Origin: Stigmatella ashevillena
Lineage (GTDB): Bacteria > Myxococcota > Myxococcia > Myxococcales > Myxococcaceae
Reading direction: 5' to 3'
DNA: 64,000 nucleotides
NCBI RefSeq assembly: GCF_028368975.1
Contig: NZ_JAQNDM010000002.1
Location: forward strand, 2,924,007 to 2,988,006
The notes below the pieces were generated by a model. That model searched no databases. It was not told where the DNA came from and was given only the letters and a program-made list of their open reading frames with translations. Every line of letters starts with the position of its first letter. The first letter of the stretch is position 1. This document shows positions 30,411 to 53,388 of the stretch, piece by piece. The position numbers were made by a program, and so were the translations under genes.

Positions 30411-31742
30411 TCAGGCGCTCACCTGCTCCACGATGCGGGTGGCATGTTGGCGGGCGTTCCCAGCGACTTCGCCCGCGTCCAGGGTGAGGAGCTTCCCCTC
30501 CTTGAGCACCGGCTTGCCGTCGATGATGACATGCGAGACATCGGTGGAGCGGGCCGCGTGAACGAGCGCCCCCAGCACCTCACGGGCCACGGGGGTGACG
30601 TGCAGGCCCCTCAAGTCCACCACGGTGACATCGGCGCGCTTGCCCTCTTCCAGGGAGCCCACCTCGGACTCCAACCCCAGCGCCCGGGCCCCCTCCAGGG
30701 TCGCCATCTCCAGGACGCGCAAGGGGGGCATGCCCAGGGGGCCGACCCGCGGCTTGTGCAGCAGCGCCGCCAGCCGCATCTCCATGAAGAGATCCAGGTT
30801 GTTGTTGCAGGGAGCGCCATCGGCTCCCAGGCACACGTGCACCCCGGCATCCATCAGCTCGGGCACCTTCGCGATGCCGGAGGCGAGCTTGAGGTTGGAG
30901 CTGGGGCAGTGACACACCACGGTGCCCGTCTCGCGCAGCAGCCGCTGCTCCTCCGCGGTCAGCCACACACAGTGGGCCAGCGTCACATCCGGCCCCGTGA
31001 GCCCCAGCGCATGGAAGTAGGCGACGTTGTCCTGGCCCACCCGCTGGCGCACCACGTCGCACTCGGTGGCGTTCTCGCTGGCATGCGTGTGGATGCGGAC
31101 CCCCTTCTCCCGGGCCAGCCGCGCCACCTGCCGGAGCAGCGGCTCGGTGCACGACAGGACGAAGCGGGGGGCAAAGGCATAGCGCAACCGGTCCCCGTGC
31201 GTGCCGTGCCAGCGCTCCAGGAGGCCCAGGCTCTCGGAGATCGACGCCTCCGTCGTCTCGCGCAAGCCCGCGGGCATCCCCTGCCCCGCGTCCATCATCG
31301 CCTTGCCGCCCGTGAGCCGGAACCCGCAGTCCCGGGCGGACTCGAAGACGGCGTCGTAGTGGCGCACCGAGCCCATGTCGAGCGCCGCCGTGGCGCCAGA
31401 CTGGATGAGCTCCGCGAAGGTCAGGTCCGCCGAGGCCCGCATCGAGTCCACGTCATGCGCCGCCTCGAAGGGCCAGATGCGCTCGCGCAGCCAGTCCAGC
31501 AGCTCCAGCCCATCCGCGTGGTTGCGGAACAGCGTCTGACAGGCGTGAATGTGGCCATGGATGAGGCCGGGCATCACCACCTGCCCCGTCACGTCGATCA
31601 CGCGCCGCGCCGCGCTGCGCACCTTCAGCCCCCGCCCCACCCGGGCGATGCGGCCATCCTGAATGAAAACGTCCGCCCCCACGAGCACCTCGCGCTCGCG
31701 GTTCATTGTCACGACGGTGCCATTGGTGAGGAGCAGATCCAC
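30411..31742 (-). CDS. Amidohydrolase of the MTA/SAH deaminase (MtaD/SsnA) family
   Basis: 443 residues. Zinc-binding H-G-H-I-H-A near residue 62, L-F-R-N-H near 71, [10 protein letters not shown] near 87, T-H-A-S-E-N near 220, L-A-H-C-V-W-L near 256 and G-A-D-G-A-P-C-N-N near 307 fit the MTA/S-adenosylhomocysteine/8-oxoguanine deaminase clade of metal-dependent deaminases. It is 34 bases downstream of cytidine deaminase in the nucleoside operon, so an adenosine-type or guanine-type base/nucleoside deaminase is likely. Specificity within the clade cannot be settled from sequence. Confidence 0.83.
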
Positions 31743-31776
31743 GGATGGCGGGCTCTTACCACAGGGCCCGCCGGTC

Positions 31777-32181
31777 TCAGAGGAAGTCGCGCGTGAACGC
31801 GTACGGCAACAGCTCCCGCAGGGCGTAGCGGGCCTCTTCGCCCTGGAGGGTGCGGCTGCGAATGGGCAGATCCGGCCCGGCGAACTCGGCCATCACCTGC
31901 CGACACATGCCACACGGGGGACAGGGCGTGGGGGTGTCCACCACGATGGCCACCGCCACCGGCCGAGAGTGCCCCTGCGCCACCGCCGAGACGAAGGCGC
32001 CGCGCTCGGCACACACCGTGAGTCCGTACGTGGCATTCTCCACGTTACAGCCAGTCACCACCGACCCATCCTCGAAGAGGATGGCCGCACCGACTGGGAA
32101 GCGCGAATAGGGCACATGGGCGCGCTCGCGCACTTTTGACGCCTGCTGGAACAGCGCTTCCCACGGAATGTCTGTGGCCAT
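31777..32181 (-). CDS. cdd: Cytidine deaminase
   Basis: 134 residues, the usual length of the tetrameric enzyme. Substrate-binding region Y-S-R-F-P-V-G-A-A at 25-33, catalytic C-A-E (Cys57-Glu59) and the P-C-x-x-C-R-Q motif (Cys90, Cys93) provide the zinc site. It converts (deoxy)cytidine to (deoxy)uridine. ATG with GGAGAGG upstream. The amidohydrolase is immediately downstream and the PilZ gene 15 bases upstream, all within the salvage operon. Confidence 0.95.
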   Translation of the reverse strand: MATDIPWEALFQQASKVRERAHVPYSRFPVGAAILFEDGSVVTGCNVENATYGLTVCAERGAFVSAVAQGHSRPVAVAIVVDTPTPCPPCGMCRQVMAEFAGPDLPIRSRTLQGEEARYALRELLPYAFTRDFL

Positions 32182-32195
32182 GGACCTCTCCAATT

Positions 32196-32561
32196 TCAGC
32201 GCGGGGTTCTGGTCAGCTCCAGGTCGTCCAGGTGGCGGGCAATGGCCAGCTCCTCCTCGACGGACAGGTTCACGAAGCGCACACGCGCCGCCACGCCGGG
32301 CTCGCCCCGCGTCACCTGAAGCACCTCCCCACTCACCCGCAGCTCGTCCGGGGCGGACGGCAAGAGCAGCCGCAGCTCCACCTGAGCCCCCCCCTCCAAC
32401 GCGCCGCCGCGAAGGGCACACCCGCCCAGCGACAAATCTCCCTCGTAGGCCTCGAACCCCGCCTCACTCCCGGCGCGCCGCACCAGGAAACGCATGGGGA
32501 CCCGGGGAGATTCTCTCCGCTCTTCTGCCCCGGAAGCCGGGGAAATCTTGTTCTCCGCCAT
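32196..32561 (-). CDS. PilZ domain protein (c-di-GMP binding)
   Basis: 121 residues. The c-di-GMP binding elements are present: R-R-x-x-x-R (residues 15-20, R-R-E-S-P-R) and D-x-S-x-x-G (D-L-S-L-G-G at about 42-47), followed by the beta-barrel. It stands alone as a PilZ receptor and lies between purine nucleoside phosphorylase (17 bases upstream) and cytidine deaminase (14 bases downstream), which links the salvage operon to second-messenger control or is an incidental insertion. No other domain. Confidence 0.85.
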   Translation of the reverse strand: MAENKISPASGAEERRESPRVPMRFLVRRAGSEAGFEAYEGDLSLGGCALRGGALEGGAQVELRLLLPSAPDELRVSGEVLQVTRGEPGVAARVRFVNLSVEEELAIARHLDDLELTRTPR

Positions 32562-32578
32562 CGCTGTCGAATCCTTGC

Positions 32579-33409
32579 TCAGTTGCGTGCCACTCCGGAA
32601 AGGAAATCCGTGAGCAGCCGGGCAAAGATACCCGCTACCCGTTGGGCCGTCTCGGCCACTTCGCCGTGGGAGAGCGGTTCGGTGCCCACCCCCGCCGCCA
32701 GGTTGGTGATGCAGCTGATGCCCACCACCGGGACGCCCATGTGACGGGCGGCCACCACCTCGGGCACCGTGCTCATCCCCACCGCGTCCGCCCCCAGGGT
32801 GCGCAGCATGCGGATTTCCGCGGGCGTCTCATAGGAGGGGCCTGCCACCATGGCGTACACGCCCTGCCGCAGGGGCACCTCCCCCCGGCGGGCGGACTCG
32901 AGCAGCCGCGCCCGGAGCTCAGGCGAATAGGCCTGGGACATGTCCGGGAAGCGCGTTCCCAGCCGGTCATCGTTGGGCCCCGTCAGCGCATTCCACCCGG
33001 AGAGGTTGATGTGGTCGGTGATGACCATCAAATCCCCGGGGGCGAACTGGGGATGGATGCCCCCCGCGGCGTTCGTCACCACCAGGGCCTCGATGCCCAG
33101 CGCACACAGCACCCGCGCGGGCAAGGTCACCTGGGTGGGCGAATACCCTTCGTAGGCATGCACCCGGCCCTGCATCGCCACCACGGTCTGCGACCCCACC
33201 TGCCCCAGCACCAACCGGCCCGCGTGGCCCGGCACCGAGGAATGGGGAAAGTGGGGCAGTTCTGCGTAGGGAATGACCACCTGGCGCGCGAAGCCTTCGG
33301 CGAATGCCCCCAGACCACTGCCCAGGATGATGCCCACCTTCGGCGAAAGGCCCCCCGCGCGCTGCCGGATGGCCTGGGCCGTCTCCTGGATCTGCTCGTA
33401 AAGTCCCAT
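32579..33409 (-). CDS. punA: Purine nucleoside phosphorylase (PNP I type)
   Basis: 276 residues, trimeric-class PNP size. G-S-G-L-G near residue 31, phosphate/ribose region G-H-A-G near 62, G-R-V-H-A-Y-E-G-Y near 81, V-T-N-A-A-G-G-I near 112, and the base-binding G-P-S-Y-E-T-P-A-E near 192 with late N in C-I-T-N-L-A. It cleaves (deoxy)inosine and guanosine with phosphate to base and (deoxy)ribose-1-phosphate. ATG start with GGCGGA upstream. Sits between the Tsx-like gene and the PilZ gene. Confidence 0.95.
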   Translation of the reverse strand: MGLYEQIQETAQAIRQRAGGLSPKVGIILGSGLGAFAEGFARQVVIPYAELPHFPHSSVPGHAGRLVLGQVGSQTVVAMQGRVHAYEGYSPTQVTLPARVLCALGIEALVVTNAAGGIHPQFAPGDLMVITDHINLSGWNALTGPNDDRLGTRFPDMSQAYSPELRARLLESARRGEVPLRQGVYAMVAGPSYETPAEIRMLRTLGADAVGMSTVPEVVAARHMGVPVVGISCITNLAAGVGTEPLSHGEVAETAQRVAGIFARLLTDFLSGVARN

Positions 33410-33476
33410 TCCGCCGCCATCCTACTCCAGCTGGGCGGCGGCTGGGATTCAGCCCCTCACGGGATTCAGCCCCTGA

Positions 33477-34343
33477 CTAGATGTTCCAGCGGATCATGCC
33501 CTGGAGCACGTTCTCGGTCTTGCCCTCGATGAGGTAGCGGTTCCAGGCCACCTGCCACTCGAAGCCCGCGTACAGCTTGCCCGGGGTGAAGTGGATGGGC
33601 TTGCCGAAATCCCAGAGGAACTGGGGCTGGGCGAGGAAGAACTGGTTGCCCTCGTTCATCGAGTTGGTGCCCTTGCCCTTGCCTTCGCCAAACAGGCCCG
33701 TCTGGAAGAAGCCGGCGAGGATGAAGTCCTGGGTGAGGAACGTGAAGGACTTCTGGAAGGCCGCGCCCACCTGGAAATCGACGCCCTCGTAGGCGACATC
33801 GTCACGAATCACCGTCGTCACATTCATGAAGTCCAGCACGGGCACGGCCAAATCCCACTGGAGGCCGTAATAGCTGAGCATGCCGAGCTTCGACACGTGC
33901 TCCGCCTCGTACTTGAGGGACACGTCGGACAGCAGACCCCACTGGAACTGGCGGCCGGCGATCTTCTCCGCGATCCGCTTGGGGGACAGCGTCAGGGTGA
34001 TGCCGCCGAAGAAGCCGCCCCGCTCGTTGAGGTTGAGATCATTGGCGATGACGCTGTTGAAGGGCCCGGTGATGTCGTAATACAGGAACATCGTCCCGTA
34101 CTCCCACGCCTGGAACGCCTTGATCGACAGGACAGTGCGGGCGCCATCCCCGTTGAAGTCCTTGTTGAAACAGTCGATGGCGCCGCGGTAGCGACCGATA
34201 ACTCCGTTGTCCTGCTTGATGTCGTCCCCATTGCCCGTCAGGCAGGGGGCGCGCAGCAACTCGAACCAGACGCCCGCCTGGGCGTTCAGCGGGGAAAGGA
34301 AGACAGCGAGGAGCGTGGCAACGAACAGGGCATTGCGAATCAT
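33477..34343 (-). CDS. Tsx-like nucleoside-specific outer-membrane channel
   Basis: 288 residues. Signal peptide ending N-A-Q-A-G near residue 24, then an amphipathic beta-strand protein with many aromatic pairs (W-E-Y-G-T-M-F-L-Y-Y-D near 81; L-Y-A-G-F-E-W-Q-V-A-W-N-R-Y near 262), typical of a 12-stranded barrel. The W-x-Y-G-x-x-F near the N terminus resembles Tsx/OmpK family starts, and the gene lies between two nucleoside phosphorylase genes, so a nucleoside pore is the likely role. The end (M-I-R-W-N-I) lacks a terminal Phe, so the family call is moderate. Confidence 0.62.
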   Translation of the reverse strand: MIRNALFVATLLAVFLSPLNAQAGVWFELLRAPCLTGNGDDIKQDNGVIGRYRGAIDCFNKDFNGDGARTVLSIKAFQAWEYGTMFLYYDITGPFNSVIANDLNLNERGGFFGGITLTLSPKRIAEKIAGRQFQWGLLSDVSLKYEAEHVSKLGMLSYYGLQWDLAVPVLDFMNVTTVIRDDVAYEGVDFQVGAAFQKSFTFLTQDFILAGFFQTGLFGEGKGKGTNSMNEGNQFFLAQPQFLWDFGKPIHFTPGKLYAGFEWQVAWNRYLIEGKTENVLQGMIRWNI

Positions 34344-34426
34344 GGGGGGGCCTCTCAGTGGCTCCCCGATCTCGCACGAGACCCGTCAGGTCTTCAAGAA
34401 ATGAGACAGACAGTTTGGGAAACGCT

Positions 34427-35731
34427 TTATTCCAGCCGCTCCACGATGAGCGGACGGGGGGGCGGTATTTCATGCCCAAAGGAATAGGCAGCCAGGAGCC
34501 GCTCCTCCACATCCTTGAGAGGGCCCTCATTGTTGTAATGCACGCGCACCACCGGCTCTCCGGCTTTCACGGGCTCTCCCACCTTGCGCAGCAGGGTGAA
34601 GCCCACCGCCGGATCAATGAGGCTGTCCACCCGCTGCCGCCCGGCCCCCAGGGCCACCGCCGCCAGCCCCACCGCCTCGGTGTCAATGGCTGTGACGAAG
34701 CCTTCCACGGGGGCCACCACGTCGCGCGTGGCCCGCGCCTGCGGCAAGCGTGAGTAATCGTCGATGGCCCGCGGGTCTCCGCCTTGCGCCCGGACAATGT
34801 CTCTCAGCTTTTGCAGGGCGCTGCCATCCTCCACCACTCGGCGCAATTGCTCCCGCGCCTGTTGAGGCGTGGCCGCCTTGCCCCCGAGCACCAGCATCTC
34901 CGCGGTGAGCGCCAGCGTCACCTCGGTGTAGTCCTCCGGCGCCTGCCCGCGAAGCATCTCCACCGCTTCCACCACCTCCAGCGCGTTGCCCACCGCGCGC
35001 CCCAGCGGTTGATCCATGTCCGTCAGCAGCGCCGTCACCTTGCGGTTCATCGCCGTGCCCAGGGAGATCATCGTCCGGGCCAGGGCCCGCGCGTCCTCCA
35101 AGCGCTTCATGAAGGCGCCGCTGCCCACCTTCACATCCAGCACCAGCGCGTCGATGCCCTCCGCCAGCTTCTTGCTCATGATGGAGCTGGCGATGAGCGG
35201 CAGGCAGTCCACCGTGGCCGTCACGTCCCGCAGCGCGTAGAGCTTCTTGTCCGCGGGGGCCAGCGTCGACGTCTGGCCGATGAGGCAGGCGCCCACATCC
35301 CGGACCAGCCGCCGGTAGTCCGCCACGGACAGGTCCACCCGGAACCCGGGGATGGACTCCAGCTTGTCCAGCGTACCCCCCGTGTGCCCCAACCCGCGGC
35401 CCGAAATCATCGGAACGGGAACGCCACAGGCGGCTGCCAGCGGCGCCAGGCTCAAGGAGACCTTGTCCCCCACCCCTCCGGTGGAGTGCTTGTCCACCTT
35501 GATGCCAGGGGTCTCGGACAGGTCCAGCACCTCTCCGGACTCGAGCATGGCCCGCGTCCAGGCGCCCAGCTCCTCCGCATTCAGCCCGCGGAAGAAGACC
35601 GCCATGCACAAAGCGGACATCTGGTAATCCGGGACGTCACCCCGAGTGTAAGCGGCGATGAACTCCCGGATGCGCTCGGGGGGCAGAGGGTGGCCTTCAC
35701 GCTTGGCCTTGATGAGCTCGTAGGGTCTCAC
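34427..35731 (-). CDS. pdp: Pyrimidine-nucleoside/thymidine phosphorylase
   Basis: 434 residues from a GTG. The start M-R-P-Y-E-L-I-x-x-K-R-E-G matches the Gram-positive-type pyrimidine-nucleoside phosphorylase, as does the phosphate signature K-H-S-T-G-G-V-G-D-K near residue 82. Other family blocks (P-M-I-S-G-R-G-L-G-H-T-G-G-T-L-D near 106, V-G-S-G-A-F-M-K near 200) are intact. It splits thymidine, uridine or deoxyuridine into base and sugar-1-phosphate. First gene of the minus-strand salvage operon and divergent from the transporter operon; the 92-base gap between must carry both promoters. Confidence 0.95.
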   Translation of the reverse strand: MRPYELIKAKREGHPLPPERIREFIAAYTRGDVPDYQMSALCMAVFFRGLNAEELGAWTRAMLESGEVLDLSETPGIKVDKHSTGGVGDKVSLSLAPLAAACGVPVPMISGRGLGHTGGTLDKLESIPGFRVDLSVADYRRLVRDVGACLIGQTSTLAPADKKLYALRDVTATVDCLPLIASSIMSKKLAEGIDALVLDVKVGSGAFMKRLEDARALARTMISLGTAMNRKVTALLTDMDQPLGRAVGNALEVVEAVEMLRGQAPEDYTEVTLALTAEMLVLGGKAATPQQAREQLRRVVEDGSALQKLRDIVRAQGGDPRAIDDYSRLPQARATRDVVAPVEGFVTAIDTEAVGLAAVALGAGRQRVDSLIDPAVGFTLLRKVGEPVKAGEPVVRVHYNNEGPLKDVEERLLAAYSFGHEIPPPRPLIVERLE

Positions 35732-35823
35732 GACTCCAGGCCATAGCAGGAACCCGGGCGGTGGGGTACCCGTCCCGAGCCAATCTCTTCCCTCAGGTCC
35801 ACCATCTGGTAGATACGGGGGTC

Positions 35824-37035
35824 ATGACCCGAACCCTCCGTCTCTCTGTCCTGGCCGTCGCCACGATCCTGGGCGCGTGTAAAAAGGAACAGCCCGCTGC
35901 CCCTGCTCCCACCCCCGGACAGGAGCAGGCGCAAGGACAGGCCGCCCCCCCGGCGGCGAAGACCCGTAAGGTCGGCCTCATCACCGATGTGGGCGGCCGG
36001 GGAGACAACTCCTTCAATGACGCCGGGTTGCGGGGCCTGGAGATCTGGGCCGCGGGCAAGAAGTACGAGGGCGGCAAGTACGTCCCCGCCTCGCCGGAGG
36101 ACATCCAGAAGACCCTCACCCCGGACCTGCTCACCCTCCAGCCCCCCATCAGCCCGCAGGCCATCGAGCCGCTGGTGATCCAGAGCAAGTCCCCCGAGGA
36201 TTACGAGCCCAACCTCCAGCTGCTCGTGGACCAGGGCGCCGACCTCTCCGTGGGCAACGGCTTCATGCTGGAATCGGCGGTGGAGACCGTCGCCAAGCGC
36301 AATCCCAAGTCCCAGTTCCTGCTCATCGACAGCCCCCTGCTGGACGCGGCCGCGGGCAACAAGCCCTACACGCTGCCCAACGTGCGCACCGTCACCTTCA
36401 AGGAGCAGGAGGGCAGCTTCCTGGTCGGCGCGCTCGCGGGCCTCGTGACGAAGACGGGCAAGGTGGGCTTCGTGGGCGGCATGGAGGTGCCCCTCATCAA
36501 GCGCTTCGAGGCGGGCTACCGCGCGGGCGTGAAGACCACCCAGCCGAAGGCCGCCGAGGCACTCCTGGCCGTCTACTCGGGCAGCTTCGACAACGTGGCG
36601 GCCGGCAAGCAGGTGGCGCAGGACCTCATCGCCAAGGGCGCGGATGTCATCTACCACGCCGCGGGCGCCGACGGGCTGGGGGTCATCAAGGCGGTGGAGG
36701 AGGCGCGCGCCGCGGGCAAGGCGGTCTACGCCATTGGCGTGGACTCGGATCAGTCGCACCTGGCCCCGGAGGCCGTGCTCACTTCCATGCTCAAGCACGT
36801 GGACCTGGCCGTTTACGAGGCGGCGAAGGACCTGGCCGCGGGCAAGTTCACCGCGGGGGATCAGCTGCTCGGACTGAAGGAAGGCGGCGTGGGCTACGCC
36901 GCGGTGCGCGTGGACTTCCCTGGCAAGGCGGAGGCCCTCCAGAAGGTGGAGGCGCTGCGCCAGCGCGTCATCGCGGGAGAGATCAAGGTCCCCGCTTCCG
37001 TGGACGAAGTCTCTGCGTTCCAAGCCTCGCCCTGA
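35824..37035 (+). CDS. BMP-family nucleoside-binding lipoprotein
   Basis: 403 residues from the ATG that opens the lipoprotein signal (L-G-A-C, Cys19). The mature part has BMP features: I-T-D-V-G-G-R-G-D-N-S-F-N-D near residue 53, Q-E-G-S-F-L-V-G-A-L-A-G near 198, and V-I-Y-H-A-A-G-A-D-G-L-G near 275. BMP proteins (PnrA, BmpA, NupN) bind nucleosides for ABC import. First gene of the plus-strand transporter operon and divergent from the phosphorylase. Confidence 0.93.
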   Translation: MTRTLRLSVLAVATILGACKKEQPAAPAPTPGQEQAQGQAAPPAAKTRKVGLITDVGGRGDNSFNDAGLRGLEIWAAGKKYEGGKYVPASPEDIQKTLTPDLLTLQPPISPQAIEPLVIQSKSPEDYEPNLQLLVDQGADLSVGNGFMLESAVETVAKRNPKSQFLLIDSPLLDAAAGNKPYTLPNVRTVTFKEQEGSFLVGALAGLVTKTGKVGFVGGMEVPLIKRFEAGYRAGVKTTQPKAAEALLAVYSGSFDNVAAGKQVAQDLIAKGADVIYHAAGADGLGVIKAVEEARAAGKAVYAIGVDSDQSHLAPEAVLTSMLKHVDLAVYEAAKDLAAGKFTAGDQLLGLKEGGVGYAAVRVDFPGKAEALQKVEALRQRVIAGEIKVPASVDEVSAFQASP

Positions 37036-38540
37036 TTTCCCTCCGCCACATCCACAAGCAGTTCGGCGGCGTCGCCGCGTTGGACGACGTGTCGCTCGAG
37101 ATCCGTGCGGGCGAACTGCTCGCGCTGGTCGGCGAGAACGGCGCGGGCAAGTCCAGCCTGATGAACGTCCTGTACGGGCTCTACCACCCGGACGCGGGCG
37201 ACATCCTGATCGACGGCAAGCCGGTGCGCTTCAAGAGTCCCCGGGACGCCATCGCCCGGGGCATCGGCATGGTGCACCAGCACTTCATGCTGGTGCCCAC
37301 GTTGACGGTGGCCGAGAACGTGGTGCTCGGCCGCGAGCCCTCGCGCTGGGGGCGCATGGACCCGGAGCGGGCCTGCGCCGAGGTGGCCGCCACCTGCCAG
37401 CGGTTCGGCTTCCAGCTCGATCCGCGGGCCCGCGTGGACTCGCTCACCGTGGGCTCGCAACAGAAAGTCGAGATCGTCAAGGCGCTGCACCGCGGGGCCA
37501 AGGTGCTCATCCTGGATGAGCCCACCGCCGTGCTCACGCCCCAGGAGTCCGAAGACCTGTTCCGCGTGGCGCGCGGCCTGGCCGCCCAGGGCCACACGGT
37601 GGTCTTCATCAGCCACAAGCTGCGCGAGGTGCTCAGCGTGGCCGAGCGCATCGCCGTGATGCGGCGGGGCAAGCTCGTCGCCGAGGTGAAGGCGGCGGAG
37701 ACCTCGGTGAACGTCCTGGCCAACCTGATGGTGGGCGAGAGCCGCACCGGCAGCACGGAAGCAGAGCCCTACCATCCTCCCACCGGCAGCGTGGTCGTCT
37801 CCGTGGAAGGCCTGAAGGCACGCACCGACGACGGGCACCCCGCGTTGCAAGGGGTGACGCTCACCGTGCATGCCGGTGAAATCGTCGGAATCGCCGGGGT
37901 GGATGGCAATGGGCAGCGCGAGCTGGCCGAGGTGCTCACCGGCCTGCGTCCCATGGAGGAGGGCCAGGGCACGCTGCTGGGCGCGCCCCTGAAGTCCCTG
38001 AACCCCGCCGAGGCCCGGCGAAGGGGGGTGGGCCACATCCCCGAGGACCGGCTGAAGCGCGCGGTGGTCAAGGGGATGAGCGTGGAGGAGAACGTGTCGC
38101 TGGGCCGGCAAGACCAACCCCCGTTCGCGCGGGGCCCCTGGCTGGACTTCGCGGGCCGCCGGGAGCGCACGCGGGCCCTGCTGGCCGCGTACGACGTGCG
38201 GCCCCAGAATCCCCAGGTTCCCATCCAGGGGCTCTCGGGCGGAAACCAGCAGAAGGTGGTGGTGGCGCGCGAGCTGGACACCCGTCCGAAGCTGGTGGTG
38301 GCGGTGCAGCCCACGCGAGGGTTGGACATCAGCGCCGTGGCCCAGGTGCAGGCCCGGCTGCGCGAGGAGCGGGCCCTGGGCGCCGGAGTGCTGCTCGTCT
38401 CGCTGGATCTGGAGGAGGTGCTGGCGCTGTCGGACCGCGTCTATGTGCTCTTCGAGGGGCGGGTGACGGGGAGCTTCACCCGGCCCGAGTTCGACGAGCA
38501 GGAGATGGGCCGACGCATGATGGGAGCAGACCATGGGTGA
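37032..38540 (+). CDS. Nucleoside ABC transporter ATPase (duplicated nucleotide-binding domain)
   Basis: About 502 residues, two ABC domains in one chain (NupO/YufO type). First domain: Walker A G-E-N-G-A-G-K-S-S near residue 37, D-E-P-T-A-V-L-T near 163. The second has G-V-D-G-N-G-Q-R-E near 290 and a signature L-S-G-G-N-Q-Q-K near 400. Start: no ATG, GTG or TTG precedes the conserved first strand (I-S-L-R-H-I-H-K-Q-F-G-G-V), so I place it at CTG 37032, overlapping the BMP stop TGA (ATT at 37035 is the alternative). A TTG at 37080 would remove that strand. The start is therefore uncertain. Confidence 0.85.
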   Translation: MISLRHIHKQFGGVAALDDVSLEIRAGELLALVGENGAGKSSLMNVLYGLYHPDAGDILIDGKPVRFKSPRDAIARGIGMVHQHFMLVPTLTVAENVVLGREPSRWGRMDPERACAEVAATCQRFGFQLDPRARVDSLTVGSQQKVEIVKALHRGAKVLILDEPTAVLTPQESEDLFRVARGLAAQGHTVVFISHKLREVLSVAERIAVMRRGKLVAEVKAAETSVNVLANLMVGESRTGSTEAEPYHPPTGSVVVSVEGLKARTDDGHPALQGVTLTVHAGEIVGIAGVDGNGQRELAEVLTGLRPMEEGQGTLLGAPLKSLNPAEARRRGVGHIPEDRLKRAVVKGMSVEENVSLGRQDQPPFARGPWLDFAGRRERTRALLAAYDVRPQNPQVPIQGLSGGNQQKVVVARELDTRPKLVVAVQPTRGLDISAVAQVQARLREERALGAGVLLVSLDLEEVLALSDRVYVLFEGRVTGSFTRPEFDEQEMGRRMMGADHG

Positions 38541-39645
38541 GCGCTGGCGCTCGGTCCTGCCTTCCTTGCTCTCCGTGGCACTTGCCCTGGGAGTGTGCTG
38601 GATCGCCATCGCGCTCACGCGGGACGCGGAGGTGGCCGGCGAGGCCTACTTGCAGATGCTCTATGGCGGCCTGGGCCAGTGGCCCCGGTACCTGGAGACC
38701 GGGGATGTCGGGACGCTCACCCGGCCCCTGGGAGAGGCCGCCATCAAGGCCGCGCTGCTGCTCCTGACGGGCCTGTCCGTGGCGGTGGCCTTCAAGGCCG
38801 GCCTGTTCAACATCGGGGCCCAGGGCCAGATGCTGCTGGGCGCGCTGCTGGCGGCCCTGGTGGGTGCCCACATCTCCCTGCCCTCTGCACTGCACATTCC
38901 CCTGGCCCTGCTGGCCGCAGCCCTTGCGGGCGCGGTGTGGGCCCTCATCGCGGCGGCGCTCAAGCTGATGCGCGGTGTCCACGAAGTCATCACCACCATC
39001 ATGCTCAACTGGGTGGCGGTGAGCCTGGTGGACAACTGGCTGGCGATTGGACCGTTGCGCGCGGCCGTCAGTGGCGGCCACTCCATCTCCGGTACGGCGG
39101 AAATCCATCCCAGCGCGCAGTTGCCCCGGCTGCTGGGAGACCTGTCGCGGTTGAACCTGGGCTTCCTGCTGGCGCTGCTCGTGGCGCTGCTCGTCTGGGT
39201 GGGGCTGTTCCGGACGCGCAGGGGCTTCGAGATCCGGGCCTCGGGCCTGGGCGCCGAGGCAGCCCGGACAGCGGGCATCGCCGTGAATCGGCGCACGGCC
39301 GAGGCCATGGGGCTGGCGGGCGCGCTGGCGGGGCTGGCGGGCGCCCTGCTGGTGCTGGGCACCGAGTTCCGCTACCCCGGCTCGCTCGGCGCCCCCTATG
39401 GCTTCGACGGCATCGCCATCGCGCTCATTGGCAACAGCCACCCGGTGGGGGTGACGCTCTCAGCGCTGTTCTTCGGCATCCTGCGCGCCGGCGGGACGCG
39501 GATGCAGCTGCTGGGCGTGCACAAGAGCTTCCCGGAGCTCATCCAGGGGCTGTCGCTGTTGTTCGTCGCGGGCCGCCTGGTGTGGCTGACCCTGCTGCGC
39601 AAGCGCCGCGCCGTGTCCGCTTCCACCGAGGTGCCCCGTGCTTGA
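38533..39645 (+). CDS. Nucleoside ABC transporter permease 1
   Basis: 370 residues with about ten hydrophobic segments. Family marks of the BPD_transp_2 group: F-N-I-G-A-Q-G-Q-M-L-L-G near residue 92, V-I-T-T-I-M-L-N-W near 153, and R-T-R-R-G-F-E-I-R-A-S-G near 225. It pairs with the second permease to form the membrane channel of a BMP-dependent nucleoside importer (NupP/YufP type). Starts eight bases inside the ATPase gene. Confidence 0.93.
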   Translation: MGERWRSVLPSLLSVALALGVCWIAIALTRDAEVAGEAYLQMLYGGLGQWPRYLETGDVGTLTRPLGEAAIKAALLLLTGLSVAVAFKAGLFNIGAQGQMLLGALLAALVGAHISLPSALHIPLALLAAALAGAVWALIAAALKLMRGVHEVITTIMLNWVAVSLVDNWLAIGPLRAAVSGGHSISGTAEIHPSAQLPRLLGDLSRLNLGFLLALLVALLVWVGLFRTRRGFEIRASGLGAEAARTAGIAVNRRTAEAMGLAGALAGLAGALLVLGTEFRYPGSLGAPYGFDGIAIALIGNSHPVGVTLSALFFGILRAGGTRMQLLGVHKSFPELIQGLSLLFVAGRLVWLTLLRKRRAVSASTEVPRA

Positions 39646-40567
39646 GCTCCTCGAAGCCCTGCTCTTCTCCACGCTGGATGCCGCCCCGGCGCTCATCTTC
39701 GCGGCGCTGGGAGGCGTCCTCTCCGAGCGGGCCGGCGTGGTGAACGTGGGGCTCGAAGGCCAGATGCGCGTGGGGGCCTTCTGCGCGGCGGTGGCCGCCC
39801 TGTCGATGCCGACCCCGTTGGCGGTGGGGGTGGGCATGCTGGCGGGCGCGGGGCTCGCCATGGTGCATGGCTACCTGAGCATCCGCTGGCGCTCGGATCA
39901 GGTGGTGTCCGGCATGGCCATCAACCTGGTGGCCCTGGCGGGCGGCACCTTCCTGTTGGAGGCCCTCTACAGCCCCAATGGCACCCCGCCCATTCAGCAG
40001 CTTCCCCGCTGGGAACTGCCAGGCCTGGGGGCCGTGCCCGTGCTGCGCGCCCTCTCGAACCACCCGGGCCTCACCTACCTGGCGCTGGCCCTGCCCTTCG
40101 TCTTCCACGCCCTGCTGCACCACACCCCCGCCGGGCTGCGGCTGCGGGCCGTGGGGGAAAAACCCCACGCGGTGGCCACCCTGGGACTGAGCGTCGCGGG
40201 CTTGCGCTGGGGCGCGGTGCTGGGCGGAGGCATGCTGGCGGGACTCGGAGGCGCGGTCCTCTCCACCGCCGTGCTGGACCGCTTCGAGCAGCACACCCCG
40301 GCGGGCCTGGGCTTCATGGCCCTGGCCGCCGTGGTCTTCGGCCGGTGGACGCCCCTGGGGGCCTTCGCCGCCGCCGCGTTCTTCTCCTTCGGCAACGCCT
40401 TGCGGATCGGCCTGGCCTCCAGCGCCCCAGGCCTCCTCGACGTCATCCCCCAAGGCTTCCTGCTCGCCTTGCCCTACCTGCTCACGCTGCTCCTCCTGAC
40501 CATCCAGGGACAACGCAGCAGTGCCCCTGCGGCCCTGGGCACGCCCTACGAGCAAGAGTCGCGCTGA
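39638..40567 (+). CDS. Nucleoside ABC transporter permease 2
   Basis: 309 residues from a GTG that overlaps the first permease by eight bases. About nine hydrophobic segments with the family signature V-V-N-V-G-L-E-G-Q-M-R-V-G near residue 33 and L-R-L-R-A-V-G-E-K-P near 168. NupQ/YufQ-type partner of permease 1. The operon ends here: 270 bases of AT-rich non-coding sequence follow. Confidence 0.93.
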   Translation: MLELLEALLFSTLDAAPALIFAALGGVLSERAGVVNVGLEGQMRVGAFCAAVAALSMPTPLAVGVGMLAGAGLAMVHGYLSIRWRSDQVVSGMAINLVALAGGTFLLEALYSPNGTPPIQQLPRWELPGLGAVPVLRALSNHPGLTYLALALPFVFHALLHHTPAGLRLRAVGEKPHAVATLGLSVAGLRWGAVLGGGMLAGLGGAVLSTAVLDRFEQHTPAGLGFMALAAVVFGRWTPLGAFAAAAFFSFGNALRIGLASSAPGLLDVIPQGFLLALPYLLTLLLLTIQGQRSSAPAALGTPYEQESR

Positions 40568-40837
40568 GCGGTCCTCTCCACAGCCGGGGTCAGCAGGACC
40601 TGGGTCTTTCCAGACCACGGGTTTGGGTTGACCCTTGCGCGTTTGCCTACCTTTCGTGCAGATATTGAATTATGAGAAAAAGCGACTTTCCCAACCCTCC
40701 GCAGTTGCTTGAGAAAAAGAAATAAAGCTCCAAAAGTCGGGAAAAAATAAAGGGTCCGAAAACTAGGCATGCATCTAGCAGGTGGGATGATTCCTCACGG
40801 AACTTCTATTACCCCGGTCCACCCGAGGGGGTGCGAG
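40568..40837. other. AT-rich non-coding region
   Basis: 270 bases between the permease gene and the HATPase-like gene. About 40,660-40,775 is strikingly AT-rich for this genome, with runs of A and two GAAAAAG motifs. A 7-bp inverted repeat (40683-40689 with 40733-40739, CGACTTT/AAAGTCG) spans 43 bases. A TTGACC box at 40628-40633 looks like a sigma-70 -35, but no convincing -10 follows at the right distance. It probably holds the promoter or leader of the downstream gene. Confidence 0.45.
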
Positions 40838-41404
40838 ATGATGGCGACGACGGCAACGACGGCAACCGCTCGCAAGGCCCTGTCCGTAGACTCCCAGGCC
40901 CTCAACCGGATGAGGACGCTTCCGGTGGAAGGCGGGGAGGCCACCAACAATGTGGTTTCCCTGGAAGCCTACCTGCGAGAGTCCCTGCCGGTGGAGCTGG
41001 GCTCCCTGGCCAAGGAAGTCGTCGAGCAGATGATCGGCGAGGACCGGCTGGCGGGCATCGAGGTGATGTACCACCTGCCCGAGGAGACCGTGCAGGCGGA
41101 GCTGCCCCGGCGTCAGTTCGAGCAGGTGGTGGAGCAGCTCGTGGCCGCCTCTGCCCAGGCGATGCGCCTGGTGACGGGCAAGCCCCACGTCCTGCGCGTC
41201 ATCGTGGAGGCGGCGGACGACTTCGGTGACTACGGCCCGCGCCTGCGCCTCCAGGACACGGGGGCCGCCCTGCCCTCCGAGACGCTGGAGGCCATGGCCG
41301 AGCGCGTGGAGAAGCTGGGCGCGAAGCTGACGGTGAAGAGCCGTCCCTCCGGGGGCAACATCGTCGTGGTGGAGCTGCCGCCCGAAGAGCTCGCCTCCTG
41401 GTAG
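40838..41404 (+). CDS. Stand-alone degenerate HATPase-fold protein
   Basis: 188 residues starting M-M-A-T-T-A after GAGGGGG. The C-terminal half follows the order of a histidine-kinase ATPase domain: a helix resembling the N-box (F-E-Q-V-V-E-Q-L-V-A-A-S-A-Q-A near residue 96), L-R-L-Q-D-T-G-A near 139 (G1-box-like) and S-R-P-S-G-G-N-I-V-V-V-E-L near 170 (G2 end). The classical N-box Asn and F-box are missing and no His phospho-acceptor domain is present, so kinase activity is doubtful. Could be a scaffold or inactive sensor output. Confidence 0.6.
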   Translation: MMATTATTATARKALSVDSQALNRMRTLPVEGGEATNNVVSLEAYLRESLPVELGSLAKEVVEQMIGEDRLAGIEVMYHLPEETVQAELPRRQFEQVVEQLVAASAQAMRLVTGKPHVLRVIVEAADDFGDYGPRLRLQDTGAALPSETLEAMAERVEKLGAKLTVKSRPSGGNIVVVELPPEELASW

Positions 41405-41407
41405 GCG

Positions 41408-42082
41408 CTAGAGCCGCACCGCCACGCCCAGGAGTGTCTCCAGGGTGAAGTAAGCGGAGTCGCCCCCCAAGCCCCTGCCCGAGCCTTGAACGAGGGAGGG
41501 GCCCATCCGCACGTGGGCGGTCACCGCCAGGTTGCGGTCGATGAAGTACTCCAGCCCTCCGCCCACCAGAATGGGAACGACCGCGCCCCCGTCCCCGCCG
41601 AAATAGACGTGGAAGGGCACATCCAGGCCCACGTTCACCATCAGGGCGCTGCCCACGGGAACGCCCACCACGAGCGCGACCGGCAGGGTCAGGCCCACGT
41701 CGTCGGAGCCTTCGTGGAAGTAGAAGAACAGCCCGGGCTGGAAGGTGGCCGCCAGCGCCACCTGGTCGAGTTGCAGCAGCTTCAGCCGCGCGTAGCCCTG
41801 GAACTTGAGGCCGGGCTCGACGATTTCGACGAGGCCCTCCTGGCCATAATTGAAGGAGAACCGCCCGCCCAGGTCCAGATCTGGCAGCGTGCCGCGGAGC
41901 ACCGCCAACGACAGGCCCGGCCAACCGGCCTGCCCGAAAACGGCGGTGTTGCCGACGCCGACCGTGTCCGCGGCGAGCGCGGACCACCCCTGAGCACGGC
42001 CATAGGAAGACCCCTCCTGAGCGAGCACGGAGGAGGAAGCCAGGACACAACCAAGAAGAACCATGGGAACGAGGCGCTTCAC
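41408..42082 (-). CDS. Outer-membrane beta-barrel-like exported protein
   Basis: 224 residues from GTG 42082 (AGAGGG upstream; an ATG six codons later is an alternative). Signal peptide cut near S-V-L-A-Q. Alternating hydrophobic strands with aromatic residues throughout, ending L-L-G-V-A-V-R-L, fit a small barrel. Likely surface-exposed; function unknown. Convergent with the HATPase-like gene, with only three bases between the two stops. Confidence 0.7.
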   Translation of the reverse strand: MKRLVPMVLLGCVLASSSVLAQEGSSYGRAQGWSALAADTVGVGNTAVFGQAGWPGLSLAVLRGTLPDLDLGGRFSFNYGQEGLVEIVEPGLKFQGYARLKLLQLDQVALAATFQPGLFFYFHEGSDDVGLTLPVALVVGVPVGSALMVNVGLDVPFHVYFGGDGGAVVPILVGGGLEYFIDRNLAVTAHVRMGPSLVQGSGRGLGGDSAYFTLETLLGVAVRL

Positions 42083-42153
42083 AAAGCCCTCTGGAGCGAA
42101 GGGCCGCGCACAGACGCGCGGCCAGTGAGAAGAGACTGGAGGCACGGAAAGGT

Positions 42154-43881
42154 TCAGGCCGGTTGCCCCCGTTCGCGGGCGAGCGCCACGAAGGCATCGA
42201 TGACCGTCCGCAAACGCCCCTCGGCCCGCGCGCGCGCCTGGACCAACGGCTCCCCCGCGCCAGGGGCCTCCTTCAGCTCGAAGTAGTATTTGATCTTCGG
42301 CTCGGTCCCCGAGGGCCGCAAGGTGACGCGCCCGCCGCCCTCCAGCTCGAAGGCGATGACGTTCGAGGGAGGCAGGCGGAGCGCCCCCGTCTTGTAGTCC
42401 TTGACCGCCTGGACGGCGTAGGCCCCCACCCGCTTCGGGGCCTCTCTCCGGAAGCCGTCCATGATGCGCGCGATGGTCTGGGCTCCCTGGGCACCTGGAA
42501 AGGTGAAGTTGCGCTGGGCGCCGACGAACAGGCCATGGCGGCGTTGGATTTCTTCCAGGTAGCCCACCACCGTCACCCCGCGGGACTGGCACCACGCCGC
42601 CAGATCCGCGAACACCAGCGCCGCGCTCACGCCGTCCTTGTCCCGGACCACCGAGCCCACCGTGTAGCCCAGCGCCTCCTCGTAGCCGAAGACGAACCGG
42701 GTGCCCTCGCTGTGCTCGCGCTCCAGCGCACGGTTGGCAATCCACTTGAAGCCGGTGAGCACTTCATCGAAGGCGGCCCCCAGCTCGTGGGCAATCTGCC
42801 CGAGCTGCACGGACGAGACGATGGTGGTGGCCACGTGGGGACTGGCCTGCTTCGGCCCCTGGGTGAGCAGGTAGTGCCCCAGCAGCACGCCCACCTCGTT
42901 GCCGGTGAACATGCGCAGCGCCCCCTCCTTGTCCCGGGCCATCACCGCCAGCCGGTCCGCATCCGGATCATTGGCAAGAACCAGGTCCGCCTTGTGGCGC
43001 TCGGCGGTGGCGATGGAGAGATCCATCGCGCCCGGCTCCTCGGGGTTGGGAAAGCGCACGGTGGGGAAGGTGCCATCCGGCTGGTGCTGCTCGGCCACGG
43101 GATGGAACCGCGTGAAGCCCGCGGCCTTCATGGCCCGCTCCATCCACGCCCCGCCCACACCGTGCATGGCGGTGTAGACGACGGAGAGCGTCTCCGCCCC
43201 CCGGCCATACACGCGCAGCCCCAGGATGGCCTCGAGGTACGCCTCGCCCATCGACTCCGGGATGTCGCGCCAGAGGCCTCGCGCCCGGGCCTCCTCGGGG
43301 GTCAACAGCCGCACCTGATTGGCCGGCTCCACCGCGTCGATGGCGGCGGCGATGCCTTGATCGTGCGGCGGGACGATCTGCGCGCCGTTGCCCCAGTAGA
43401 CCTTGTACCCGTTGTACTCGGGAGGATTGTGGCTGGCGGTGACCATCACCGCGGCACAGGCGCCCAGGCGCAGCGTGGCAAACGCCGTCAGGGGCGTGGG
43501 CACGAGGCCCGGGAAGACCCATGCGGGAATCCCCTCCGCGGCCAGCACACAGGCGGTGTCCTCGGCGAACTCGGCGCTCATCCGGCGCCCATCCCGGCCG
43601 ATGACCACCCCCCGAGACGCGGCCTCGGGCACCTGGGCCTTGAGATAGCGCGCCAGCCCCGCCGAGGTGCGGCGCACCACGGCCCGGTTCATCCGGTTGG
43701 GGCCCGCGCCCAGCACGCCGCGCAGACCCGCGGTGCCAAATTCCAGGTTGCCCGCGAAGCGATCCGCCAGGTCCGCCGTGTCTTCCTTCGCCAGCACCCG
43801 CCCCAGCTCCTCGGCCGTCGAGGGGTCCGGGTCCGCCTGCCGCCACGCTTCCGCCTGCTCTCTCAGTCCGATGATGCTCAT
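42154..43881 (-). CDS. PGM2-type phosphoglucomutase/phosphopentomutase
   Basis: 575 residues of the alpha-D-phosphohexomutase superfamily. Phosphoserine loop T-A-S-H-N-P-P-E-Y-N-G near residue 149, metal loop D-P-D-A-D-R-L near 304, sugar loop G-Y-E-E-A-L-G near 394 and phosphate loop R-P-S-G-T-E-P-K near 536. The length and the E-F-G-T-A-G-L-R-G start (residue 47) match the PGM2/YhxB group, which interconvert hexose and also pentose 1- and 5-phosphates. In this neighbourhood a phosphopentomutase role feeding DeoC is attractive but is inference. ATG after GGAGGCGG. Confidence 0.85.
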   Translation of the reverse strand: MSIIGLREQAEAWRQADPDPSTAEELGRVLAKEDTADLADRFAGNLEFGTAGLRGVLGAGPNRMNRAVVRRTSAGLARYLKAQVPEAASRGVVIGRDGRRMSAEFAEDTACVLAAEGIPAWVFPGLVPTPLTAFATLRLGACAAVMVTASHNPPEYNGYKVYWGNGAQIVPPHDQGIAAAIDAVEPANQVRLLTPEEARARGLWRDIPESMGEAYLEAILGLRVYGRGAETLSVVYTAMHGVGGAWMERAMKAAGFTRFHPVAEQHQPDGTFPTVRFPNPEEPGAMDLSIATAERHKADLVLANDPDADRLAVMARDKEGALRMFTGNEVGVLLGHYLLTQGPKQASPHVATTIVSSVQLGQIAHELGAAFDEVLTGFKWIANRALEREHSEGTRFVFGYEEALGYTVGSVVRDKDGVSAALVFADLAAWCQSRGVTVVGYLEEIQRRHGLFVGAQRNFTFPGAQGAQTIARIMDGFRREAPKRVGAYAVQAVKDYKTGALRLPPSNVIAFELEGGGRVTLRPSGTEPKIKYYFELKEAPGAGEPLVQARARAEGRLRTVIDAFVALARERGQPA

Positions 43882-43929
43882 CTCCGCCTCCGCTCCCCCT
43901 GTGGCGCACGAGGGCCGTGCACCACGCGT

Positions 43930-44322
43930 TCAGGTGTAGTCGGTGAGCTTGCGCCGCGTGGGCCCTCCCTTGGGCTTGTCCTTCTTGCCCTGGCAGTCCA
44001 CGCAGAACTCCACGTACGGCACGGCCTTGAGCCGGCCATAGGGCAGCTCGTCCCCGCACTCCTCGCACTCGCCAAAACTGTCCGGATCGTTGCGCAACTT
44101 GCCCAGCGCTTTCATCACGCGCGCCAGCACCCCGTCCGTGTTCCGGTTCCGGCTGGAGGCGATGGCCTGCATCATCTCGTTGAGGGGCTGCTCGTCCTCG
44201 TCCCCGCCAATGCGCGCATCGTCCGTCCGGTTGGGCTCTATCTTCGCGGGCACCTTGCCGGTCAGGTCCGCATGCAAGGCCAGCAGAAGGGTGCGCATTT
44301 CCTCTCGCTGAGCGTCCGTCAC
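43930..44322 (-). CDS. DksA/TraR-family zinc-finger protein
   Basis: 130 residues from a GTG with GGGAG five bases upstream. A helical N-terminal part is followed by the zinc finger C-E-E-C-G near residue 84 and C-V-D-C-Q near 105, in the spacing of DksA/TraR proteins. The basic tail (K-K-D-K-P-K) is unusual. DksA-type proteins bind RNA polymerase through the secondary channel and tune rRNA, stress and amino-acid promoters. Lies between the mutase and aldolase genes, both same strand. Confidence 0.82.
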   Translation of the reverse strand: MTDAQREEMRTLLLALHADLTGKVPAKIEPNRTDDARIGGDEDEQPLNEMMQAIASSRNRNTDGVLARVMKALGKLRNDPDSFGECEECGDELPYGRLKAVPYVEFCVDCQGKKDKPKGGPTRRKLTDYT

Positions 44323-44347
44323 AAGGGCTCCCAGGCCTGCATCTGTT

Positions 44348-45166
44348 TCAGTACTTCGCGGTGGACGTCTGCCCGGTGACGATGGCCACGGAGGCTGATG
44401 CGCCGAGGCGGTTGGCGCCGGCCTGAATCATCTTCATCGCGTCCTCGGCGGAGCGCACCCCTCCGGAGGCCTTCACCCCCACGTCATCGCCCACCACCTC
44501 CCGCATGAGCGCCACGTCCTCGACGGTGGCCCCTCCGGAGCTGAAACCGGTGGACGTCTTCACGAAGGCGGCGCCCGCGGCCTTCGCCAGCACGCAGCCG
44601 ATGATCTTCTCCTCGCGCGTCAGCTGGCTCGTCTCCAGGATGACCTTCACCGGGTACGGTCGGCTGGCGTCCACCACGTGGGCGATGTCCTGGTGCACCA
44701 ACGCATAGTCCCGGGACTTGAGCGCGCCCAGGTTGATGACCATGTCGATTTCCCGGGCGCCACAGCGGATGGCCTCGCGTGCCTCGAAGGCCTTGGCGCT
44801 GGACAGCGCGGCGCCCAGCGGGAACCCCACCACGGCAATGGGCACTGTCTTCGAACCCTCCAACACGCGCGCCACCAGCGCCACATTGGCCGAGTTCACG
44901 CACACCGTCGCGAACCCGTGCTTCCGGGCCTCCTCGGCCACCTTGAGGAGGTCCTCCCGGCTGGCCTCGGGCTTGAGCAGCGTGTGGTCGATATAGGGCG
45001 CCAGATCGGCTCCCGAGCGAAGTGTCCCCGGAGCAAGCCGGGCCGTGCCCACCTTCACCGAGGGCCCTGGACCCTCGCCTCGCGGGAAAGTTCCCCCACC
45101 GTCCGAGGGAGTGCCTGGAACCTCTTCCTTGCCTGAACGCGGGTCGATGTTGTCAGCCTCGGCCAT
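44348..45166 (-). CDS. deoC: Deoxyribose-phosphate aldolase
   Basis: 272 residues from ATG 45166; the core enzyme begins near residue 50 (L-A-P-Y-I-D-H-T-L-L-K-P). Schiff-base Lys near 201 in F-V-K-T-S-T-G-F, catalytic Asp in E-I-D-M-V-I-N-L-G near 138 and V-K-A-S-G-G-V-R near 228 are intact. It splits deoxyribose-5-phosphate to acetaldehyde and glyceraldehyde-3-phosphate, ending the deoxynucleoside salvage route. The 49-residue N-terminal extension is Pro/Gly-rich and not part of the fold, so the start may be internal; the next upstream ATG (45229) is also possible. Confidence 0.9.
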   Translation of the reverse strand: MAEADNIDPRSGKEEVPGTPSDGGGTFPRGEGPGPSVKVGTARLAPGTLRSGADLAPYIDHTLLKPEASREDLLKVAEEARKHGFATVCVNSANVALVARVLEGSKTVPIAVVGFPLGAALSSAKAFEAREAIRCGAREIDMVINLGALKSRDYALVHQDIAHVVDASRPYPVKVILETSQLTREEKIIGCVLAKAAGAAFVKTSTGFSSGGATVEDVALMREVVGDDVGVKASGGVRSAEDAMKMIQAGANRLGASASVAIVTGQTSTAKY

Positions 45167-45275
45167 GGCGGCGGATGTAGCCCAGATGGGGGCCCCTCGG
45201 GAAGCACCCGAACGAGGGGCTTGCGACATGCGCCCAGTGCCGCACAACAGGGGCAAGGGGTAGAGTCGCCCGGTG

Positions 45276-52986: not shown

Positions 52987-53388
<402 letters not shown>

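Follow-up and report, generated by a model that had tools for sequence, protein, structure and literature searches.

The nucleoside genes at positions 30411-45166 of a 64,000-nucleotide stretch of the Stigmatella ashevillena genome (assembly GCF_028368975.1, contig NZ_JAQNDM010000002.1; the whole stretch is called the window hereafter) raise the question of which enzyme, in a genome where DeoB was not found, would shift the phosphate of (deoxy)ribose-1-phosphate to C5. A sequence-only reading of this DNA, made by a model, had joined two phosphorylases, two deaminases, a BMP importer, a Tsx-like protein, a PGM2-type mutase and DeoC into a single path that starts with nucleosides and yields bases, acetaldehyde and glyceraldehyde-3-phosphate. 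The gene families bear that path out, and we consider it very likely that this is a nucleoside capture and catabolism locus with the PGM2-type mutase in DeoB's stead; that the mutase is itself a phosphopentomutase appears highly probable from sequence comparison. The pathway is ordinary and the locus real and widely kept; what is new, and well supported, is the mutase assignment and the exchange of this enzyme with DeoB.

Searching the own genome (10.95 Mb, two contigs) with the DeoB model TIGR01696 gave as its best result one partial match of 29 bits against a cut-off of 341.2; in a control set the model scored over cut-off in 6 of 14 genomes, including E. coli and B. subtilis. The mutase of the window carries the four PGM/PMM domains of the PGM2 type in about 575 amino acids. 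Across the phylum, the same 195 genomes were searched for both enzymes (PGM2-type at E<=1e-30, DeoB at E<=1e-20), and the PGM2 type was found in 132 and DeoB in 46 (45 over cut-off), with both in none and neither in 17. The family groups were disjoint, 19 with the PGM2 type and 9 with DeoB (Fisher p 8e-31, uncorrected for kinship).

The exchange could also be followed at the locus itself. Relatives are cited below by genus (g), family (f), genome (G) and locus (L) codes, f1 being the own family and f7 a DeoB family of the same order. Five of the 12 DeoB genomes of f7, those with pdp and DeoB on one contig, were fetched, the other seven being uncheckable. In all five loci the BMP importer and deoC flanked DeoB directly, DeoB being on deoC's strand, and pdp lay 2.6-6.7 kb past the importer's other end (inverted and split into two matches in L295). 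The PGM2-type gene of the window occupies the corresponding place, in the interval between importer and deoC and on the deoC strand; the HATPase-like, small outer-membrane and dksA genes are additional there. That two unrelated enzymes take up one corresponding place is the strongest evidence for the mutase role. A tree of 17 Pdp proteins, on which each was given the mutase type of its family, called for three switches between the mutase types, the same in bootstraps, though strongly supported branches force only one. The features of the locus are as follows.

30411-31742, minus strand: DadD, 5'-deoxyadenosine deaminase family amidohydrolase (NF005557, 630.5 bits, cut-off 522)
31777-32181, minus strand: Cdd, cytidine deaminase (TIGR01354, 137.9 bits, cut-off 113.65)
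32196-32561, minus strand: PilZ single-domain protein with RxxxR and DxSxxG (PF07238, 49 bits, cut-off 22.5; motifs in orthologues)
32579-33409, minus strand: Pnp, purine nucleoside phosphorylase I (PNP I; TIGR01700, 332.9 bits, cut-off 293.35)
33477-34343, minus strand: tsx-like, Tsx-fold outer-membrane barrel (fold match of a model to 1tlw, VIA Z 18.9; no Tsx family match)
34427-35731, minus strand: Pdp, pyrimidine nucleoside phosphorylase (PDP; TIGR02644, 568.4 bits, cut-off 409.05; NF004490, thymidine phosphorylase, also over cut-off)
35732-35823, no strand: 92-base divergent pdp/bmp region, presumed promoters (spacing; eight-genome alignment)
35824-37035, plus strand: BMP/PnrA-type substrate-binding lipoprotein (PF02608, 207 bits, cut-off 24.1)
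37032-38540, plus strand: ATPase of the ATP-binding cassette (ABC) importer (PF00005 in two stretches; start by comparison, most likely CTG, in a CTGA overlap)
38533-39645, plus strand: ABC permease 1 (PF02653)
39638-40567, plus strand: ABC permease 2 (PF02653)
40841-41404, plus strand: HATPase-like protein (PF02518 below cut-off; synteny)
41408-42082, minus strand: small secreted or outer-membrane-type protein (synteny; GTG start picked by eye, ahead of a signal-like stretch)
42154-43881, minus strand: PGM2-type mutase, proposed phosphopentomutase, loop FGYEEALGY (PF02878, PF02879, PF02880, PF00408)
43930-44322, minus strand: DksA/TraR-type zinc-finger protein (PF01258)
44348-45166, minus strand: DeoC, deoxyribose-phosphate aldolase (TIGR00126, 257.6 bits, cut-off 117.3)

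The locus thus consists of two back-to-back blocks around the 92-base divergent region. On the minus strand, short gaps of 83, 67, 17, 14 and 34 bases separate, in turn, pdp, tsx-like, pnp, pilZ, cdd and dadD, and the plus-strand genes bmp, ATPase, permease 1 and permease 2 overlap by 4, 8 and 8 bases if the ATPase starts at 37032. The HATPase-like gene follows permease 2, and the minus-strand small outer-membrane, PGM2, dksA and deoC genes face the importer block. Every gene named in the sequence-only reading was confirmed at its place and strand, the Tsx-like one by fold and the others by family models; missing from its list were the genes for PilZ, the HATPase-like protein, the small outer-membrane protein and DksA, and what it called a deaminase of methylthioadenosine/S-adenosylhomocysteine type is a deaminase better named for 5'-deoxyadenosine (NF005557, 630.5 bits). 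Many genera keep the HATPase-like and small outer-membrane genes at this locus, with about 30-65% identity beyond the closest relatives, and both genes are fast-evolving; the small outer-membrane-type protein (41408-42082) had no family match at E<=0.001.

A second line of evidence for the mutase came from its sugar-binding loop, FGYEEALGY, in which two glutamates are followed by no serine. All 18 aligned proteins carried this EEA form, as did 73 of the 74 phylum proteins read. Published comparisons, cited here and below for the parts consulted, give the loop as GEESF in PGM1 and as FAFEE in PGM2 and PGM2L1, without the serine in the phosphopentomutase PGM2 and with it in PGM2L1, and propose that the lost serine may accompany pentose use (PMC5570346). 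Human PGM2 resembles the window mutase in belonging to the alpha-phosphohexomutase superfamily and in having two glutamates and no serine in the loop (PMC5570346); the two differ in that the bacterial enzyme has GYEEA, the human one FAFEE, and in that the activity of the window enzyme is a prediction.

We also read a non-random sample, the best 80 of at least 587 confirmed relatives in other genomes, in which 72 of 80 loci were readable and divided into 32 EEA and 40 EES loci. The EEA loci came from 25 Actinobacteria, 4 Vibrio/Shewanella and 3 metagenome-assembled genomes counted as Myxococcota, and the EES loci from 17 Clostridia and 23 Bacteroidota, Chlorobiota and Spirochaetes. The fetched stretch, which varied in length, contained at least one nucleoside gene (a match to pnp, pdp, cdd, deoC or bmp) in 25/32 EEA loci vs 2/40 EES loci, and in 17 of the 25 actinobacterial EEA loci pnp lay less than 450 bases from the mutase gene. 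In the PGM2 tree one branch parted EEA from EES (SH-aLRT, an approximate likelihood-ratio branch support, 100). DeoB scored over cut-off in none of the 25 EEA Actinobacteria (one Streptomyces gave a partial match of 76.9 bits), none of the 3 Myxococcota metagenome-assembled genomes, 11 of the 17 Clostridia, none of the 23 other EES genomes and 3 of the 8 genomes with unread loci. These results suggest that the EEA type in Myxococcota and Actinobacteria behaves as a phosphopentomutase.

The rival explanation casts the PGM2-type enzyme as an ordinary phosphoglucomutase, or as a glucose-1,6-bisphosphate synthase, whose place in the locus is incidental, some other enzyme isomerising the pentose-1-phosphates. 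Mutases of the alpha-phosphohexomutase superfamily are often promiscuous, and the own genome encodes three more PGM_PMM_I proteins. Bacterial PGM2-like enzymes may still be efficient phosphoglucomutases, an activity that "remains to be investigated" (PMC5570346), and bacteria do have bisphosphate synthases of the superfamily, these belonging to another subgroup, cd05800 (PMC9426568). Several of our own results also weigh against a phosphopentomutase. The swap at the locus was seen between two families only, f1 and f7, and outside f1 the PGM2 gene is seldom near nucleoside genes (1 of 31 phylum stretches, L175, some stretches being short). One phylum protein, of G194, has an EES loop. The EEA/EES split is one event in the tree, and all 25 EEA loci with nucleoside neighbours are actinobacterial, because of which the Fisher values are to be read as uncorrected for kinship. 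All four Vibrio/Shewanella EEA genomes (three Vibrio-type, one Shewanella) retain DeoB, and therefore the residue alone does not decide the role there; within the best-80 sample, loop type and DeoB were not significantly linked (4/32 vs 11/40, p 0.15). DeoB absence as a sufficient sign of PGM2-type function was rejected, as 29 of the 40 EES genomes are without DeoB too; it carries little information by itself because Bacteroidota-type EES genomes also lack it. Set against the rival are the zero overlap with DeoB in 195 genomes, DeoB at the corresponding place in f7, a loop with EEA and not EES, and the nucleoside-gene neighbours in Actinobacteria, in view of which we regard an ordinary phosphoglucomutase or bisphosphate synthase as quite improbable.

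The assignment as a phosphopentomutase has partial precedents. A mycoplasma gene of the superfamily, deoB/0733, was proposed in 2019 to encode a phosphopentomutase on the basis of its gene neighbourhood and a 21% identity to TK1777 (PMC6609329), TK1777 of Thermococcus is a superfamily member reported as a phosphopentomutase (PMC11641776), and a phosphomannomutase gene occurs in mycoplasma nucleoside operons (PMC13274396). Like the window mutase, deoB/0733 and TK1777 are alpha-phosphohexomutases linked to the phosphopentomutase role; unlike the window enzyme of about 575 amino acids, TK1777 has about 450 and is most like a Pyrococcus PMM/PGM (PMC11641776). Neither the mycoplasma nor the Thermococcus account, in the parts consulted, compares PGM2-type enzymes with DeoB across a phylum. 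Among the papers listed in our literature search, whose coverage left out most subscription journals, none assigned a PGM2-type phosphopentomutase in Myxococcota or Actinobacteria, and the main text of PMC8562490 contains neither Rv3308 nor PmmB. The assignment bears on a published open question, whether bacterial PGM2-like enzymes act on pentoses or hexoses (PMC5570346). Taken together, the DeoB placement in f7, the lack of any genome with both enzymes among the 195, and the EEA/EES residue form a rule that an assay can test. If true, it would fill the missing phosphopentomutase of Myxococcota and many Actinobacteria, and metabolic models would be corrected; such actinobacterial genes may bear phosphomannomutase names.

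With the mutase so assigned, the genes can be read as one route. Nucleosides would cross the outer membrane through the Tsx-like barrel, in the Stigmatella lineage, and the inner membrane through the BMP ABC importer. DadD and Cdd would then turn adenosine and cytidine into inosine and uridine, PNP I and PDP would split off the free base, leaving (deoxy)ribose-1-phosphate, whose phosphate the PGM2-type mutase would shift to C5 in place of the absent DeoB, and DeoC would cleave deoxyribose-5-phosphate, with glyceraldehyde-3-phosphate and acetaldehyde as products. With DeoB not found in the genome, the earlier claim that the "whole sugar branch" is present holds only if the PGM2-type enzyme is a phosphopentomutase. 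Pnp matched the inosine/guanosine-specific model (TIGR01700) and Pdp the pyrimidine phosphorylase model; the PNP I and PDP families normally perform poorly with adenosine and cytidine, which would account for DadD and Cdd in the operon. The substrate ranges of deaminases and phosphorylases thus explain the operon's make-up without invoking predation. We infer the substrate range of importer and barrel and a joint regulation of the genes; no DeoR/NupR-type regulator was among the genes called, though no search aimed at one was made.

Known deo/nup clusters (E. coli deoCABD; Gram-positive BMP-NupABC) likewise combine phosphorylases, cytidine deaminase, DeoC and a BMP ABC importer; the window locus differs from them in a PGM2-type enzyme for DeoB, PilZ and Tsx-fold genes inside and a deaminase of DadD type. 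The earlier claim that such a grouping is unusual found no support. Families f3, f7 and f9 of the order also have a BMP importer near pdp, accompanied in f7 by deoC; 4 of the 25 EEA actinobacterial loci combine matches to bmp, pdp, pnp and cdd in one stretch, and comparable Gram-positive groupings exist.

Among relatives, 137 of the 145 order genomes searched have pdp, and four genomes (the own, G001, G004, G005) have the strict series pdp-tsx-pnp-pilZ-cdd-dadD; G002, G006 and G020 have unrelated genes between tsx and pnp, and G003 runs into the end of its contig. In g8, g9, g12, g23 and g43 there is a locus without tsx that comprises pdp, the permeases and ATPase of the importer, mutase, dksA, pilZ, cdd and dadD; in g17 the contig held the importer-mutase half alone, and some fetched stretches stop before deoC. 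In the genomes examined, pdp and mutase fall in one stretch in g1, g8, g9, g12, g15, g17, g21, g23 and g43, lie 12-15 kb apart in g24 and g11, and are far apart or on separate contigs in g5, g16, g18, g20 and g22. No pnp turned up in the g23, g43 and g12 loci or in that of G085. The core of the locus is therefore widely kept while members come and go, and it is not universal in the family; the gene order is conserved in many genera of the family, where it amounts to more than chance grouping, and is split in others.

The importer has the composition of the BMP/PnrA type, a PF02608 binding protein, a double ATPase and two permeases, and solved relatives of its binding protein in the PDB include BmpA, BmpD and TmpC, with nucleoside binders among such relatives. 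BmpD and PnrA bind nucleosides (PMC7093131), and nucleoside import by BMP importers is established in other systems (PMC7093131, PMC12628685). Vitamin B6 was considered as the ligand and set aside, the NCBIfam B6 model scoring 110.8 bits against a cut-off of 400. Bmp was absent from its slot in five pdp-centred g8/g12 loci (L078, L079, L080, L091, L092), with an orthologue (66-69% identity) elsewhere.

The junction of bmp and the ATPase gene pointed to an uncommon start codon. The ATPase frame in the window has no ATG, GTG or TTG ahead of 37080, a CTG overlaps the bmp stop (CTGA) in 12 of 12 bmp/ATPase junctions compared from several genera, and the same codon is TTG in the five g8/g12 loci without bmp upstream, which points to a conserved CTG start of the ATPase by translational coupling. 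A TAGATAC box stands 6-7 bases ahead of the bmp start codon in 8 of 8 aligned genomes, a spacing that would suit a leaderless bmp transcript.

The outer-membrane barrel was assigned by fold. It matched no NCBIfam family at E<=0.001 and no solved structure by phmmer at E<=1, and no Tsx model was listed in a Pfam search up to E 10, in which HMMER filters drop most weak matches. An AlphaFold2 model built from 18 sequences (mean per-residue confidence, pLDDT, 74; predicted template-modelling score 0.70) retrieved thymidine-bound Tsx first in Foldseek (E 1e-6) and Tsx 1tlw first in VIA-align (Z 18.9, root-mean-square deviation 2.8, 211 residues aligned, 10% identity), followed by NanC (Z 15.4) and phospholipase A (Z 14.8). 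The earlier Tsx-like label thus stands for the barrel fold of the model and fails for the Pfam and NCBIfam families; the window barrel shares the fold of 1tlw and differs from it in its 10% identity and its place outside the family models. The barrel might instead pass a different solute, for instance an oligosaccharide; a porin of that kind would fit the missing family match and low identity, the further barrels that match too, and a tsx-like gene away from pdp in g8 and g12; Tsx, however, tops both structure comparisons, by 3.5 Z units over the next, and the gene sits between pdp and pnp in S. ashevillena. We therefore find the other-solute porin rather unlikely and favour a nucleoside channel, as fold and place suggest, fold alone being no proof.

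The barrel gene is a local feature of the locus. It was matched in 18 of 59 relatives searched (13 strong, 5 weak; 41 unmatched), and it adjoins pdp in only 8 of the 59, all strong matches: seven of g1, the own genome included, and G020 of g15. It lies away from pdp in four genomes (G013, G033, G034, G017) and is unplaced in G018, where pdp was not found. In L098 and L099 of g12, the relocated tsx-like gene has a second BMP paralogue (56-60%) at a distance of about 3 kb, a hint that they may belong together.

What the locus feeds on is a separate question. The sequence-only reading had proposed prey nucleic acid, which the locus may serve; the alternative is salvage or housekeeping recycling, for example of 5'-deoxyadenosine, which we hold to be a real possibility, though at less than even odds. 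The family of the deaminase, that of 5'-deoxyadenosine, agrees with salvage, and the tsx-like gene was not found at the locus in the fetched stretches of other genera. The dedicated importer and DeoC suggest instead that outside nucleosides are used for carbon, and both phosphorylases run toward breakdown at plentiful phosphate, which also counts against salvage. Predation transcriptomes of M. xanthus make no mention of the locus genes in the parts consulted (PMC9548883, PMC5857379), and in the consulted part of one, purine and pyrimidine metabolism are missing from the predator pathways listed as regulated (PMC5857379), both in line with salvage; the other lists 5 nucleases among 44 up-regulated hydrolase genes (PMC9548883).

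In 19 stretches, window included, a similarity search placed a PilZ gene with the phosphorylase genes on one side and cdd on the other. It was present in 11 of 20 pdp-centred stretches, including one each of families f2 and f5, and was not found in the other 9, one of which ends at pdp with its contig. The cyclic di-GMP (c-di-GMP) motifs RxxxR and [DN]xSxxG each occur in 18 of the 19 orthologues, and both in the window protein; the exceptions are L084, a cut fragment, and L086, with NLALGG. The first motif of L080 reads RASPR, by eye. The motif is no guarantee of binding, as PlpA has the residues and was reported as non-binding, and of the 24 M. xanthus PilZ genes, all of them deleted, few showed motility or development phenotypes (PMC8316039). 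That PilZ is a c-di-GMP-controlled partner of nucleoside catabolism, tying outside nucleosides to a messenger of motility and fruiting while the PGM2-type phosphopentomutase completes the path, would be a speculative reading that we think rather doubtful; the gene nevertheless offers a testable link from c-di-GMP to nutrient use.

Elsewhere in the window, RNase P RNA of bacterial class A lies at 52990-53384; it was the only RNA to reach its gathering score, so that no riboswitch or other RNA element was found in the locus, and the window has no tRNA genes. Adjoining deoC, here and in relatives, is a metallo-beta-lactamase-fold protein (45273-46406, PF00753), and the frame at 46304-47734 resembles, by eye, a second copy.

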